Of a DNA stretch of 64,000 nucleotides, positions 39,469 through 46,073 are shown in pieces. Where the stretch lies: NCBI RefSeq assembly GCF_016806835.2, contig NZ_CP086111.1:798001-862000 (forward strand), in the 5' to 3' direction. The DNA is from Skermanella rosea. Its GTDB lineage: Bacteria > Pseudomonadota > Alphaproteobacteria > Azospirillales > Azospirillaceae. Positions within the stretch are counted from its first letter, which is position 1. Each line of letters begins with the position of its first letter. The position numbers and the translations under genes were made by a program. The notes beneath the pieces are model-generated. The model worked only from the letters and a program-made list of their open reading frames with translations. It was not told the origin of the DNA and made no database searches.

Positions 39469-40278
39469 TCACCAGCCGGCGACCACCGAGCCCTTGAACT
39501 TGTCCTGGACGAACTGCTTGACCTCCGGCGAGTGGTAGGACTCGACCAGCTGCTTGACCCAGGGCTTGTCCTTGTCCTGCTCGCGCACCGCGATGATGTT
39601 GGTGTAGGGCGAGTCCGCGCTCTCGCGGGCGATGGCGTCGGTCAGCGGGTTCAGGCCGGATTCCAGCGCATAGTTGGTGTTGACCGCCGCCGCCGTCACG
39701 TCGCCCAGCGAGCGGGGGAGCTGCGCCGCGTCCAGCTCGACGATGCGGATGCCCTTCGGGTTCTCGACGACGTCGATCGGGGTGGCCTTCAGCCCGGCGC
39801 CCTCGGCCAGCTTGATCACGCCCTCGGCCTCCAGCAGCAGCAGCGCCCGGCCGCCGTTGGTCGGGTCGTTCGGCACGGCGACGGTGGCGCCCTCGGGCAG
39901 CTCGGCCAGGCTCTTCACCTTGTTGGAGTAGATCCCCATGGGGAACACCACGGTCTTGCCGACCGAGACCAGGTCCAACCCCCGGTCCTGGACCTGGTTG
40001 TCCAGGTAGGGCTGGTGCTGGAACGAGTTCGCCTCGATCTCGCCGGCGGCCAGGGCCGCGTTGGGGATGACGTAGTCGGTGAACTCGATGATCTTGATCT
40101 CCAGGCCCTGCTTGGCGGCGATCGGCTTGACCGCGTCCAGGATCTGGGCGTGCGGGCCGGCCGAGACGCCGACCCGGACGGTCTCGGCGGAGGCAGCACC
40201 CGCGAGGGCGATGGCGGCGGCGCCGACCAGGGCGGCACCGAGGCGCCGGGACAGGATCTTGGCGGAGGGGATGTTCAT
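39469..40278 (-). CDS. metQ: Methionine ABC transporter substrate-binding protein (NlpA family)
   Basis: The periplasmic methionine receptor of the MetNIQ importer. The 269-residue protein has the NlpA fold: VRVGVSAGPHAQILDAVKPI, IIEFTDYVIPNAALAAGEIE, NSFQHQPYLDNQVQ and a final VKQFVQDKFKGSVVAGW. The signal peptide (GAALVGAAAIALAGAASA) ends in an AxA site with no lipobox cysteine, so it looks like a soluble periplasmic protein; E. coli MetQ is a lipoprotein. It is the last gene of the metNIQ operon, 91 bases after metI. Confidence 0.93.
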   Translation of the reverse strand: MNIPSAKILSRRLGAALVGAAAIALAGAASAETVRVGVSAGPHAQILDAVKPIAAKQGLEIKIIEFTDYVIPNAALAAGEIEANSFQHQPYLDNQVQDRGLDLVSVGKTVVFPMGIYSNKVKSLAELPEGATVAVPNDPTNGGRALLLLEAEGVIKLAEGAGLKATPIDVVENPKGIRIVELDAAQLPRSLGDVTAAAVNTNYALESGLNPLTDAIARESADSPYTNIIAVREQDKDKPWVKQLVESYHSPEVKQFVQDKFKGSVVAGW

Positions 40279-40369: not shown

Positions 40370-41038
40370 TCAGCGGGTTCCGATGGCCCGCTTGTTGAGC
40401 TTGCGGGCGAGGCGGTCGCCCAGGCTCTGGACGATCTGGACCAGCACGATCAGCACCAGGACGACGGCGGCCATCACCTCCGGCAGGAAGCGCTGGTAGC
40501 CGTACCGGATGCCCAGGTCGCCCAGGCCCCCGCCGCCGACCGCGCCGACCATGGCCGAGTAGCCGATCAGGCTGACCACCGCGAGCGTCAGGCCCAGCAC
40601 GATGCCGGGCAGCGCCTCGGGCAGCAGGAACTTGGCGATGATCTGGAGCGGCGTGGCGCCCATGGCCTCGGCCGCCTCGATCAGGCCGCGGTCCACTTCC
40701 CGGATGGCGCCCTCGATCAGGCGCGCGATGAACGGGATCGCCGCCACGGTCAGCGGCACGATCGCCGCCGAGGTCCCGATCGAGGTGCCGGCGACCAACC
40801 GGGTGAAGGGGATGATCGCGACGACCAGGATGATGAACGGGGTGGAGCGGGTGGCATTGACCACCACGCCGGCGATCCGGTTGAACGCCACGTTCTGGAG
40901 CAGTTCGCCCCGGCCGGTGGTCGCCAGCAGCACGCCCAGCGGCAGCCCCAGCAGGGTGCCCAGCAGCGCTGCCAGGCCCACCATGTAGAGCGTTTCGACG
41001 GTGGCGTTAACCAGCAGCGCGTAGACTTGCGGGGACAT
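40370..41038 (-). CDS. metI: Methionine ABC transporter permease
   Basis: The membrane subunit of the methionine importer, 222 residues with five predicted helices (ETLYMVGLAALLGTLLGLPL, TPFIILVVAIIPFTRLVAGT, IVLGLTLAVVSLIGYSAMVG, AVVLVLIVLVQIVQSL and one more). The EAA coupling motif is EAAEAMGATPLQIIAKFLLP. Its start overlaps the 3' end of metN by 32 bases, which implies translational coupling. Confidence 0.95.
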   Translation of the reverse strand: MSPQVYALLVNATVETLYMVGLAALLGTLLGLPLGVLLATTGRGELLQNVAFNRIAGVVVNATRSTPFIILVVAIIPFTRLVAGTSIGTSAAIVPLTVAAIPFIARLIEGAIREVDRGLIEAAEAMGATPLQIIAKFLLPEALPGIVLGLTLAVVSLIGYSAMVGAVGGGGLGDLGIRYGYQRFLPEVMAAVVLVLIVLVQIVQSLGDRLARKLNKRAIGTR

Positions 41039-42068
41039 GTCCGAGGACCTCTACCGACAGGTTGTTGACTTGGATGAACGAGATGGCGGACTGCACCGCC
41101 TCGGCGCCGCCGACCGCCTCGACCACCAGGATGCCGAACGGAGCGCCCTGGATATGGTCGATCCGGCCGTGCAGGATGTTCACGTCGAGCCCGAAGCGCC
41201 GGGTCATCTGGCTGATGATCGGCGTGTTGGCCATGGCGCCCTTGAAGGTGATGCGCAGCACCGGGTTGCCGCCGGGCAGCGGCTCCGCCACCAGCCGGGC
41301 GGCCAGGGTTTCCGGCAGCTCGGCCCCGGCCACGGCCGAGACGAAGCTGCGGGTCGTCGGGTGCCGCGGCGCCGTGAACACGTCGAACACGTCGCCGCGC
41401 TCGATGATGCGGCCGGCCTCCATGACGGCGACGCGGTGGCAGATCTCCTTGATCACGGCCATCTCGTGGGTGATCAGGACGATGGTCAGGCCGAGCTTCT
41501 CGTTGATGTCGGCCAGCAGGCGCAGGATCGACGTGGTGGTTTCCGGATCGAGCGCCGAGGTCGCCTCGTCGCACAGCAGCACCTTGGGCTCGCTGGACAG
41601 GGCGCGGGCGATGCCGACCCGCTGCTTCTGGCCGCCGCTCAGCTCTGCGGGATAGCGGTCCCGCTTGTCGCCGAGGCCGACCAGGTCGAGCAGCGGCTCC
41701 ACCTTAGCCTTGATCTCCGCCTTGCGCAGCCCGGCCAGTTCCAGCGGCAGCGCCACATTGTCGTACACGGTGCGCGACGACAGCAGGTTGAAGTGCTGGA
41801 AGATCATGCCGATGCCGCGCCGGGCGGCGCGGAGGCCGGAACCGTCCAGCGCCGCCATGTCGACGCCATCGACCGTGACCCGCCCGGCGGTCGGCCGCTC
41901 CAGCATGTTGACCACGCGGATCAGCGTGCTCTTGCCCGCCCCGCTGCGGCCGATGATCCCGAAGATCTCGCCGCGGCCGACGGAAAGGTCGATCCCGTCG
42001 AGCGCCCGAACCTCGGGACCGCCGCCCCGCCCGGGAAACACCTTCTCGACACCGTGAAACTCGATCAT
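41007..42068 (-). CDS. metN: Methionine ABC transporter ATP-binding protein
   Basis: The ATPase of MetNIQ, 353 residues from MIEFHGVEKVFPGRGGGPE. The Walker A is GIIGRSGAGKSTLIRVV, the signature YPAELSGGQKQRVGIARALS, and the Walker B PKVLLCDEATSALDPETT. The C-terminal NIL domain (about 270-345, LRITFKGAMANTPIISQM and APFGILVVEAVGG) binds methionine and inhibits transport when the internal pool is high. A start 11 codons upstream is in frame, but MIEFHGV matches the family. The leader holds a promoter, SAM-II riboswitch and intrinsic terminator. Confidence 0.95.
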   Translation of the reverse strand: MIEFHGVEKVFPGRGGGPEVRALDGIDLSVGRGEIFGIIGRSGAGKSTLIRVVNMLERPTAGRVTVDGVDMAALDGSGLRAARRGIGMIFQHFNLLSSRTVYDNVALPLELAGLRKAEIKAKVEPLLDLVGLGDKRDRYPAELSGGQKQRVGIARALSSEPKVLLCDEATSALDPETTTSILRLLADINEKLGLTIVLITHEMAVIKEICHRVAVMEAGRIIERGDVFDVFTAPRHPTTRSFVSAVAGAELPETLAARLVAEPLPGGNPVLRITFKGAMANTPIISQMTRRFGLDVNILHGRIDHIQGAPFGILVVEAVGGAEAVQSAISFIQVNNLSVEVLGHVPASLRAAG

Positions 42069-42079
42069 CCCCATACCCC

Positions 42080-42121
42080 GCAAAAACAAAAATCCGCCCA
42101 CAGCAGCTACGCCGGGCGGAT
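42080..42121 (-). terminator. Intrinsic terminator in the metNIQ leader
   Basis: On the minus strand ATCCGCCC (42114-42121) and GGGCGGAT (42092-42099) pair perfectly around a 14-base loop. A run of mostly T follows (TTTTGTTTTTG). It begins one base after the riboswitch core and lies just before the metN start, so it can attenuate transcription. Confidence 0.85.
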
Positions 42122-42180
42122 CCCCACGCTCTTTAGCTGCATTTATAAAGCGCCCGCAATCTGGTGCTCAAATCGGCGCT
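42122..42180 (-). promoter_or_regulatory. SAM-II riboswitch controlling metNIQ
   Basis: The minus-strand sequence has the SAM-II layout. AGCGCC pairs with GGCGCT as P1, around the loop GATTTGAGCACCAGATTGC. The conserved segment TTTATAAATGCAGCTAAAG follows, matching the SAM-binding J region (GAUUU...AUUGC and AUAAAUG.AGCUAAA) of the characterised metX class. The 3' GTGGGG would form the pseudoknot with the C-rich loop; I could not verify P2 pairing fully by eye. It starts within a few bases of the predicted transcription start. SAM-II elements usually act on translation; here an intrinsic terminator follows directly, which suggests transcriptional control. Confidence 0.88.
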
Positions 42181-42189
42181 GTGAATTGC

Positions 42190-42217
42190 TATATAATCAC
42201 ATGCTGCGTTGCGTCAA
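42190..42217 (-). promoter_or_regulatory. Promoter of metNIQ
   Basis: On the minus strand TTGACG (42212-42217) and TATATA (42190-42195) are separated by 16 bases. The expected start point is near 42183, immediately before the riboswitch, so the aptamer occupies the extreme 5' end of the message. Confidence 0.7.
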
Positions 42218-42389: not shown

Positions 42390-42464
42390 TGGGGCGTCGC
42401 CAAGCGGTAAGGCAGCGGTTTTTGGTACCGCCATACGCAGGTTCGAATCCTGCCGCCCCAACCA
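42390..42464 (+). tRNA. tRNA-Gln (anticodon UUG)
   Basis: A 75-nt cloverleaf. The acceptor stem TGGGGCG pairs with CGCCCCA. The D-arm is GCC...GGTAAGGC, the anticodon stem GCGGT/ACCGC carries the loop TTTTGGT (anticodon TTG), and the T-arm is CAGGTTCGAATCCTG. The CCA end is encoded. The acceptor A-U first pair and UUG anticodon identify glutamine. It is divergent from the metN leader and directly precedes a toxin-antitoxin pair and a repeat array. Confidence 0.96.
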
Positions 42465-42614: not shown

Positions 42615-42875
42615 GTGCAGATCCAGATACTCCCGAAAGCGGCGAAGGACCTCAAGGCGCTGGCGCCGCCGGACCGAGCCCGCGTCGTCTCCAAAATCGA
42701 GCAGTACGCCGCCGACCCCGCTTCGCTGGTCAACAACGTCAAGGCATTGCAGGGGTCTGACCTGTTTCGCCTGCGCGTAGGGGATTATCGGATCCTTTTC
42801 ACCGTTAACGAAGACGGCACCGTGTCTGTCCTGCTGGTCCACCGCGTTCGACACCGGAGAGAAGCCTATGACTGA
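42615..42875 (+). CDS. RelE/ParE-family toxin
   Basis: An 86-residue protein with the RelE/ParE fold pattern: MQIQILPKAAKDLKALAPPD, RARVVSKIEQYAADPASL, KALQGSDLFRLRVGDYRILF and SVLLVHRVRHRREAYD. The RVGDYRILF strand and the terminal HRREAY match mRNA-cleaving RelE-type members better than gyrase-targeting ParE, but target class is uncertain. It precedes its Xre-type partner and overlaps it by eight bases, the toxin-first order seen in HigBA-like systems. It starts 150 bases after tRNA-Gln. Confidence 0.9.
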   Translation: MQIQILPKAAKDLKALAPPDRARVVSKIEQYAADPASLVNNVKALQGSDLFRLRVGDYRILFTVNEDGTVSVLLVHRVRHRREAYD

Positions 42876-43194
42876 GACGCTCACCATTTCCCGCGCCGAG
42901 TACGACGCGCTCACCGAGCGGGTCGAGGACCTGGAAGATATCCTGGCTGCGATGAACGCGCGCGGTGGTCAGCCGATGCCGCTGGAGTGGGCCGGGCGAA
43001 TCATCAATGGGGAGAGCGCCATCCGGGTCTGGCGCGAGTTCCGGGGGCTGTCGCTGCGGGCGCTCGCCGCCAAGTCGGGTGTGAGCGCGGGTTATCTGTC
43101 CGAGATCGAGGCGGGCAAGAAGCCCGGGTCGGTGGAGGCCTACAAGGCGCTCGCAGAGGCCTTGGACACGTCCGTTGATTGGCTGGTCCTGTGA
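42868..43194 (+). CDS. Xre-family antitoxin
   Basis: A 108-residue protein. The N-terminal 45 residues (ISRAEYDALTERVEDLEDIL AAM) form an acidic helix suited to toxin binding, similar to Phd-like or MqsA-type linkers. The C-terminal helix-turn-helix (VWREFRGLSLRALAAKSGVS ... YLSEIEAGKKPGSVEAYKAL) is a clear Xre/Cro domain. It overlaps the toxin gene by eight bases and probably represses the shared promoter. Confidence 0.9.
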   Translation: MTETLTISRAEYDALTERVEDLEDILAAMNARGGQPMPLEWAGRIINGESAIRVWREFRGLSLRALAAKSGVSAGYLSEIEAGKKPGSVEAYKALAEALDTSVDWLVL

Positions 43195-45437: not shown

Positions 45438-46073
45438 ATGACCGGCATGATCGATGACAAGAGCCCGCAGTCGCCGCCGTCCGGCCGGCGCGGGCCGGCG
45501 GAGCACGAGCGGCGCGGGCAGATCCTTGCCGCGGCGGACGAGCATTTCCGCCACTACGGCTACAAGAAGACCACGGTCGCCGACCTGGCGAAGGCGATCG
45601 GGCTGTCGACCGCCTACGTCTACAAGTTCTTCGAGTCGAAGCAGGCGATCGGGGAGGCGGTCTGCGGCCGGTGCCTCGGCTCCATCGAGGCCGAGCTGCG
45701 CGCCATCGCGGGGGAGCCGAAACTGGCGGCCGACCGGCTGCGGCGCATCTACAAGACGCTGGGCAAGCGTAGCGCCGAGCTGTTCTTCAACGACCGGAAG
45801 CTCCACGACATCGTCCAGGCCGCGGTGGAAGAGGACTGGCAGGCGCCCATGACCCACAAGGCCGCCCTGCAGGACATCGTCCGGCAGGTGGTCGGGGACG
45901 GCAGGGACGCCGGGGAGTTCGAGCGCAAGACACCGCTGGACGAGACCTGCCGGGCCATCATCCAGACGATGCTGCCGTTCTGGCATCCCCTCATCCTGGA
46001 GCGGACCCTGGACGACCTGGACGACAATACGACCGCCGTGGCGACCCTGGTCCTGCGGGGGCTGAGCGCATGA
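45438..46073 (+). CDS. TetR-family regulator of the adjacent RND pump
   Basis: A 211-residue regulator. The N-terminal TetR helix-turn-helix is clear (RRGQILAAADEHFRHYGYKK, TTVADLAKAIGLSTAYVYKF then FESK). The C-terminal ligand domain (ALQDIVRQVVGDGRDAGEFE) is of the type that accompanies efflux operons. The gene is immediately upstream of the membrane-fusion protein gene in the same direction, and the spacer contains a -35-like TTGACA with inverted repeats. It is therefore likely to repress the pump and perhaps itself; its ligand is unknown. Confidence 0.9.
   Translation: MTGMIDDKSPQSPPSGRRGPAEHERRGQILAAADEHFRHYGYKKTTVADLAKAIGLSTAYVYKFFESKQAIGEAVCGRCLGSIEAELRAIAGEPKLAADRLRRIYKTLGKRSAELFFNDRKLHDIVQAAVEEDWQAPMTHKAALQDIVRQVVGDGRDAGEFERKTPLDETCRAIIQTMLPFWHPLILERTLDDLDDNTTAVATLVLRGLSA

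Follow-up and report, generated by a model that had tools for sequence, protein, structure and literature searches.

In a 64,000-nucleotide stretch of the Skermanella rosea genome (hereafter the window), a SAM-II element precedes the methionine transporter operon metNIQ, and we consider it, with a probability of roughly 0.78, to be a transcriptional OFF switch for that operon, working through three mutually exclusive pairings: the SAM-bound core, an antiterminator and a terminator. Established here are the sequence elements, the Rfam match, complementarity and covariation in relatives, and a predicted folding order. A covariation-backed antiterminator provides a concrete model for SAM-II transcriptional control that is testable by swap mutants. 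The model would also place methionine uptake under a SAM-II switch; metNIQ is absent from the SAM_alpha targets (metY, hom, metA, metX, metC and metW) named in the main text of a single survey, which finds SAM_alpha only in Rhizobiales and Rhodobacterales (Leyn 2014, PMC4239095).

Aptamer, terminator and operon in the window

All the elements lie on the minus strand, in the order promoter, SAM-II aptamer, 8-bp hairpin with U-tract, and metN-metI-metQ. This order had been proposed from the letters alone (the sequence-only reading), and is confirmed by the promoter hexamers, the match to RF00521, the hairpin with its U-tract and the gene models. The predicted sigma-70-like promoter (42190..42217), recognised from its sequence, comprises TTGACG (42217-42212), a 16-base spacer and TATATA (42195-42190), and its position gives a putative +1 site. 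It is retained in the two more divergent members of the genus, L007 and L010, the second hexamer reading TATATT in L010. A strict consensus promoter scan, which requires T as the final base of the second hexamer, found none.

The aptamer (42112..42189) matches the Rfam SAM-II model RF00521 (SAM_alpha) with 40.0 bits against a gathering threshold of 36 (E 1.5e-5), and in this covariance search the SAM-II identity claimed by the sequence-only reading held. It is the sole riboswitch in the window at the Rfam gathering threshold, at which SAM-V (RF01826) gave no match there. In the cmscan alignment, P1 is formed by AGCGCC (42175..42180) and GGCGCU (42149..42154), with all six of its 6 bp standard in the window. 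By eye, the inner five pairs are invariant across 12 aligned relatives, and the outermost is A-U, C-G or G-C in 11 of the 12; L051 has A facing G there, which breaks the pair. The window also holds the conserved words GAUUU (L1, 42174-42170), UUGC (42159-42156) and GCUAAA (42137-42132), which we take to be the words of the SAM-II pocket that carry the SAM-contacting bases. UUGC and GC(U)AA are able to pair in the P2 pseudoknot, whose further pairs appear by eye to be ambiguous and weak in the window. Because the RF00521 score, P1 and the core words all agree, the element is filed as SAM-II, a structurally well-studied class whose studied example is of the translational-occlusion type, and SAM is its predicted ligand. 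Like other RF00521 elements, it has P1, the core words, a promoter just upstream, a score above the cut-off and a methionine-related operon; unlike them, it has a distinct L1 (GAUUUGAGC...) and the 3′ core AAAUGCRGCUAAAG, the classic P2 pairing is not evident, and its target is a transporter operon. The L1 and 3′ core are specific to a subtype, whose model, R1, matches 42120..42183 with 88.9 bits, R1 having been built partly from the window sequence.

The terminator consists, by sequence and folding, of a left arm, AUCCGCCC (42114..42121), and a right arm, GGGCGGAU (42092..42099), which form a perfect 8-bp stem, and of the U-tract UUUUUGUUUUU (42082..42092), the expected termination zone; hairpin and U-tract span 42121-42082. 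It stands directly behind the aptamer, a placement that the sequence-only reading had right, and its layout is kept, with changes, within the genus. A generic terminator scan returned a single terminator-like site, which was in a different register, where 1.0 would be expected at random; this being no better than chance, it is the way relatives conserve the terminator, with changes, that makes the case for it. Termination would take place at the U-tract.

The first gene, metN (41007..42068), encodes the ATPase of a methionine ABC transporter and has TIGR02314 as its top match (443.5 bits, under the cut-off of 499.7); the ATG at 42068 is the start that best fits relatives, and 42074 is also possible. 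The permease gene metI (40370..41038) matches NF008049 with 237.4 bits, above the cut-off of 212, and metQ (39469..40278), for the substrate-binding lipoprotein, matches TIGR00363 (MetQ/NlpA) with 273.8 bits, above the cut-off of 228.85, and NF008285 under its cut-off. All three names are those of NCBIfam models, the MetN equivalog standing below its curated cut-off. On the opposite strand, a tRNA-Gln (TTG) lies at 42390-42464, with some 170 bases between it and the metN promoter downstream. Farther along the plus strand are a ParE-type toxin gene (42615-42875) that overlaps a helix-turn-helix gene (42868-43194), likely a toxin-antitoxin pair with the toxin first, and a TetR-family regulator gene (45438-46073).

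Predicted antiterminator, its covariation and the predicted folding order

The 5′ strand of the antiterminator, GCAGCUA (42140-42134), overlaps the aptamer core GCUAAA and is a 7-bp exact complement of the 3′ strand, UAGCUGC (42109-42103), which lies inside the terminator hairpin. The antiterminator hairpin extends inward by GCGU:GCGU and GGG:CCC and thereby occupies part of the terminator left arm, the CCC of which pairs with the GGG of 42125-42122. By prediction and covariation, the antiterminator can form, and it would be incompatible with the SAM-bound core as well as with the terminator. The 7-bp helix of the window alone is not rare, with 8.5% of shuffles reaching 7.

The test for covariation drew on all R1 places listed for the family and for the class sample that score 50 bits or more, which amounts to 98 elements from 71 genomes, with two elements under 50 bits left out; the 98 include at least one element, G204 (51.7 bits), of classic rather than subtype appearance. 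The register GCYGN-GGCGG with a U-rich stretch was recognised in 60 of the 98, and the other 38 were dropped. Allowing one row for each combination of genus, 5-mer and partner reduced these to 42, after removal of the window's own genus (5 rows, in four of which the search pattern misplaced the partner) and of the misregistered G272, G106 and G270, in which it caught loops; the permutation test (20,000 permutations) handles kinship only by this collapsing of rows per genus. In the outermost pair of the antiterminator, an aptamer base that is not part of P1 meets a base that is bulged, and so unpaired, in the terminator. Because that partner is bulged, the terminator does not explain how the pair varies. 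Across the 42 rows, it is G-C in 24, A-U in 4, C-G in 2, U-A in 1, G-U in 3 and non-standard, that is, broken, in 8, including 4 of the 11 rows whose first base is not G. It is Watson-Crick in 31 of the 42, compared with a permuted mean of 19.5 and with 0 of 20,000 permutations reaching 31, and standard in 34, compared with 27.2 (p 0.00125). The middle pair, which also belongs to the terminator stem, is Watson-Crick in 34 rows versus 22.8 (p 5e-5) and standard in 41.

A general test on 66 rows, each a different combination of genus and 5-mer, found five-pair partners in 44 versus 32.6 expected (p 0.0003). Helices of at least 8 bp derived from the core occurred in 16 of the 98 relatives, versus 2.0% after shuffling of the downstream stretch, shuffles that preserve base composition only. 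The helix reaches 11-14 bp in some relatives, as with GCAGCUAAAGC and GCUUUAGCUGC in G255, and in one genus (G272, G106, G331) the partner is placed immediately 5′ of the terminator, not inside it. Covariation among relatives backs the antiterminator, and the predicted switching model is well supported.

Folding energies place the two hairpins side by side: -20.3 kcal/mol for the antiterminator stretch (42140-42098) versus -20.5 kcal/mol for the terminator stretch (42125-42080). In folding of the growing transcript, the antiterminator has a probability of 0.995 when the RNA ends at 42103, 0.982 when it ends at 42099 and 0.992 when it ends at 42096. With the 3′ end at 42093 and the core free, the antiterminator stands at 0.91 and the terminator at 0.07; blocking the core to mimic SAM binding raises the terminator to 0.83. 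At equilibrium, the full-length leader gives the terminator 0.976 with the core free and 0.988 with the core blocked. Since the finished leader favours the terminator even with a free core, either the switch is kinetic or basal termination is high, and since the full-length terminator prevails either way, any switching has to happen while the polymerase is still in or before the U-tract. Control should be kinetic, since the antiterminator is favoured until the right arm of the terminator has been made. Bulk folding of the 72 relatives in which a terminator had been recognised gave a switch-like order in 36 and not in the other 36.

We picture the switch as follows. With SAM absent, GCAGCUA would pair with UAGCUGC once the latter is transcribed, and the inner part of the antiterminator would hold the left-arm CCC, letting the polymerase pass the U-tract before the terminator wins. 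With SAM present, the aptamer would keep GCUAAA, its 3′ core, within the binding pseudoknot; the left arm would be left free, the terminator would form as the right arm emerges, and transcription would stop at about 42090-42082. When SAM is plentiful, the methionine importer would thus not be made. We infer both the direction and the size of this response to SAM. The sequence-only reading had thought transcriptional control of metNIQ by SAM likely, and the terminator together with the covariation-backed antiterminator makes it probable; it had called the link from SAM to the terminator unclear, which was incomplete, the sequence offering an antiterminator that covariation supports.

Alternative mechanisms and known systems

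The terminator could instead be constitutive and SAM could act elsewhere, on translation or on RNA stability. This has been proposed for S. meliloti metA, where a terminator follows the aptamer and the authors could predict no antiterminator for it that SAM-II would drive (PMC9373788). That the terminator wins at equilibrium whether the core is free or blocked would suit this reading, as would the subtype leaders in which no terminator is visible by eye, such as Bosea and Microvirga records. We nonetheless find it unlikely: covariation of the aptamer core with a base bulged in the terminator is unexpected if the two are independent, and the Shine-Dalgarno-like GGGG (42079-42076) lies downstream of the U-tract and outside the aptamer. 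A switch based on P1 is very improbable. Its 3′ strand CGGGCG (42156-42151) does have a 6-bp exact complement in left-arm CGCCCG (42118-42113), and P1 switching is common among other riboswitches (PMC2258182); the P1 region is, however, paired in the minimum-energy fold at nearly all lengths, with the GCAGCU helix used instead, and P1 of a metX SAM-II RNA was protected with and without SAM in probing (PMC10907184). P1 and the terminator left arm vary too little among relatives for a covariation test.

The L1 and P2 region differ from classic SAM-II, and the subtype might respond to a related sulfur metabolite in place of SAM. Its loci fall near the Rfam cut-off, with an element above the RF00521 cut-off in 13 of 20 subtype loci scanned and other subtype elements at 28.9-35.8 (L160 had no RF00521 match, and L133 had two elements, one above and one below the cut-off), and its targets include sulfate and sulfonate genes. 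Given that GAUUU, UUGC and GCUAAA are retained in the window element and that metY is the commonest target (30 of 98 relatives), we regard a ligand other than SAM as highly unlikely.

A SAM-dependent transcriptional switch, the reading that we prefer, has precedent, as terminator-linked SAM-II is already established in print. Barrick and Breaker (2007, PMC2258182) report SAM-II most often with regulatory terminators in alpha- and betaproteobacteria, in a survey that describes its control mechanism as then being without experimental proof; Corbino (2005, PMC1273637) reports putative terminators in many representatives; and Scheuer (2022, PMC9373788) treats S. meliloti metZ as terminator-linked, SAM-II effects on gene expression having been, by that account, unstudied before the metA and metZ work. 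The view in the sequence-only reading that SAM-II is mainly translational finds no support in these reports, in which terminators are commonest or frequent, though a 2024 review (PMC10907184) classes SAM-II under translational occlusion. As in the window, the metZ leader has a SAM-II aptamer followed by a Rho-independent terminator, there predicted to form with SAM, and a riboswitch-sized sRNA was detected; unlike in the window, the gene is another one, and we found no covariation-backed antiterminator in the text of the metZ account, whose alternative structure is given in a supplementary figure (PMC9373788). In Bacillota, metN is under tandem SAM or T-box riboswitches (PMC12452182). In open-access full-text literature, sampled in part, we found neither a covariation-supported SAM-II antiterminator nor SAM-II ahead of metNIQ, and open-access full text held nothing on SAM-II with a methionine ABC transporter or on Azospirillum with a SAM-II riboswitch.

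Distribution of the subtype and its downstream genes

RF00521 matched in 75 of 82 genomes of the family, the order-level sample being these same 82, and in 219 of 389 genomes of the class sample. All five genus genomes examined have two matches each and keep the window-type element; the window's own genome carries the window element and, besides it, a classic match scoring 64.5 bits. The subtype model R1, built from 12 sequences of the window's own type, picked out 12 elements of at least 70.5 bits in 11 of the 82 family genomes, with the rest listed at 39.3 bits or less, a gap that is partly by construction since those 12 are the model's own building sequences. Across 385 genomes sampled from the class, R1 matched at E 1e-6 or better in 135, and among the places listed, which run down to 35 bits, many of the weaker ones coincide with RF00521 places.

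We assigned downstream genes by tblastn within 1500 bases, using references named by profile plus MetX and MetZ named by reading the sequence. A methionine or sulfur gene follows in 86 of the 98 relatives: MetY in 30, an SsuA-like sulfonate-binding protein in 24, MetN in 12, MetZ in 5, CysG in 4, MetQ and CysH in 3 each, NirA/CysI-like in 2, and MetH, MetF and SbpA in 1 each, the other 12 having no assigned gene. The gene match starts within 450 bases downstream in 75 and farther in 11; in three of these 11, all of one genus, a different gene intervenes, which is OsmC-like in the one tested.

By pattern scan of named genomes, the subtype is also present, among the matches listed, in records titled Beta- or Gammaproteobacteria, and several of these elements, read by eye, precede MetX-, MetZ- or MetH-like genes. 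Against RF00521, eight such loci gave three elements above the cut-off, four below and no match in L215; R1 matches all eight with at least 45.9 bits. The betaproteobacterial metXZ RNA element, reported as novel, similarly has a possible pseudoknot of conserved regions and a terminator and stands ahead of metX and metZ (Leyn 2014, PMC4239095), a description that suggests possible identity with the window subtype. RF02424 (Bp2_287), an Rfam sRNA family, matches the opposite strand of the L172, L261 and L221 elements below its cut-off, and has a strong genome match in 1 of 299 (G790, L329 1501-1703). On reading, the opposite strand of L329, GATTTGAGATCAGCTTGC...CAGCTAAAGCG, is a SAM-II-like leader with an inserted hairpin, ahead of a MetZ-like gene; RF00521 has no match in L329, and R1 matches only the 5′ part of the leader, at 27.1 bits. 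RF02424 may be a wrong-strand description of this riboswitch, and both it and the metXZ element may belong to the window's subtype.

A joint reading, on which we are evenly divided, is that the window element is one of a distinct SAM-II subtype that ranges, by record titles, over alpha-, beta- and gammaproteobacteria and often brings its own platform, in which the upper right arm of the terminator (GCYGN beside GGCGG) copies the complement of the aptamer 3′ core. The subtype would act as a general transcription switch of the sulfur regulon (metY, metNIQ, sulfonate and sulfate uptake, cysH, cysG, metF and metH), and the metXZ element and RF02424 would be the same thing.

Among betaproteobacterial records, terminator-bearing subtype elements, which may be the metXZ element of Leyn 2014, precede genes read as MetX-like in L215 and L269 and, as judged by no more than the beginning of the reading frame, in L240 and L264. 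The pairing GCAGC:GCUGC seems to be replaced by AAAACG:CGUUUU in L215 and L264.

In 16 of the 98 relatives (e.g. L178, L147 and L151), the first element is followed after 66-178 bases by another SAM-II-like one, which is of the weak SAM_alpha-like group described below. Tandem SAM-II/SAM-V leaders likewise have the SAM-II with a terminator in first place (PMC9481103), and the doubled elements are possibly tandems acting on transcription and then on translation; unlike those leaders, the window has a single Rfam riboswitch match. L138 has a weak SAM-V match (35.8 against a cut-off of 41). In L165, L169 and L173, of one genus, subtype elements are paired about 700 bases apart, the second ahead of an SsuA-like gene in 3 of 3; the first is ahead of an OsmC-like gene in the one tested (L136). 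Same-family genomes further hold a second weak SAM_alpha-like group (L052-L060), in which L052-L058 score 27-30 bits, below the cut-off. L054 reads CGCGGCAATTTGATCGCCAGCTTGCGCCGCG...AAACGCTAAAGCGCC, with no evident terminator, and L055, L056 and L059 precede genes with, by eye, a sulfate-binding-protein-like start.
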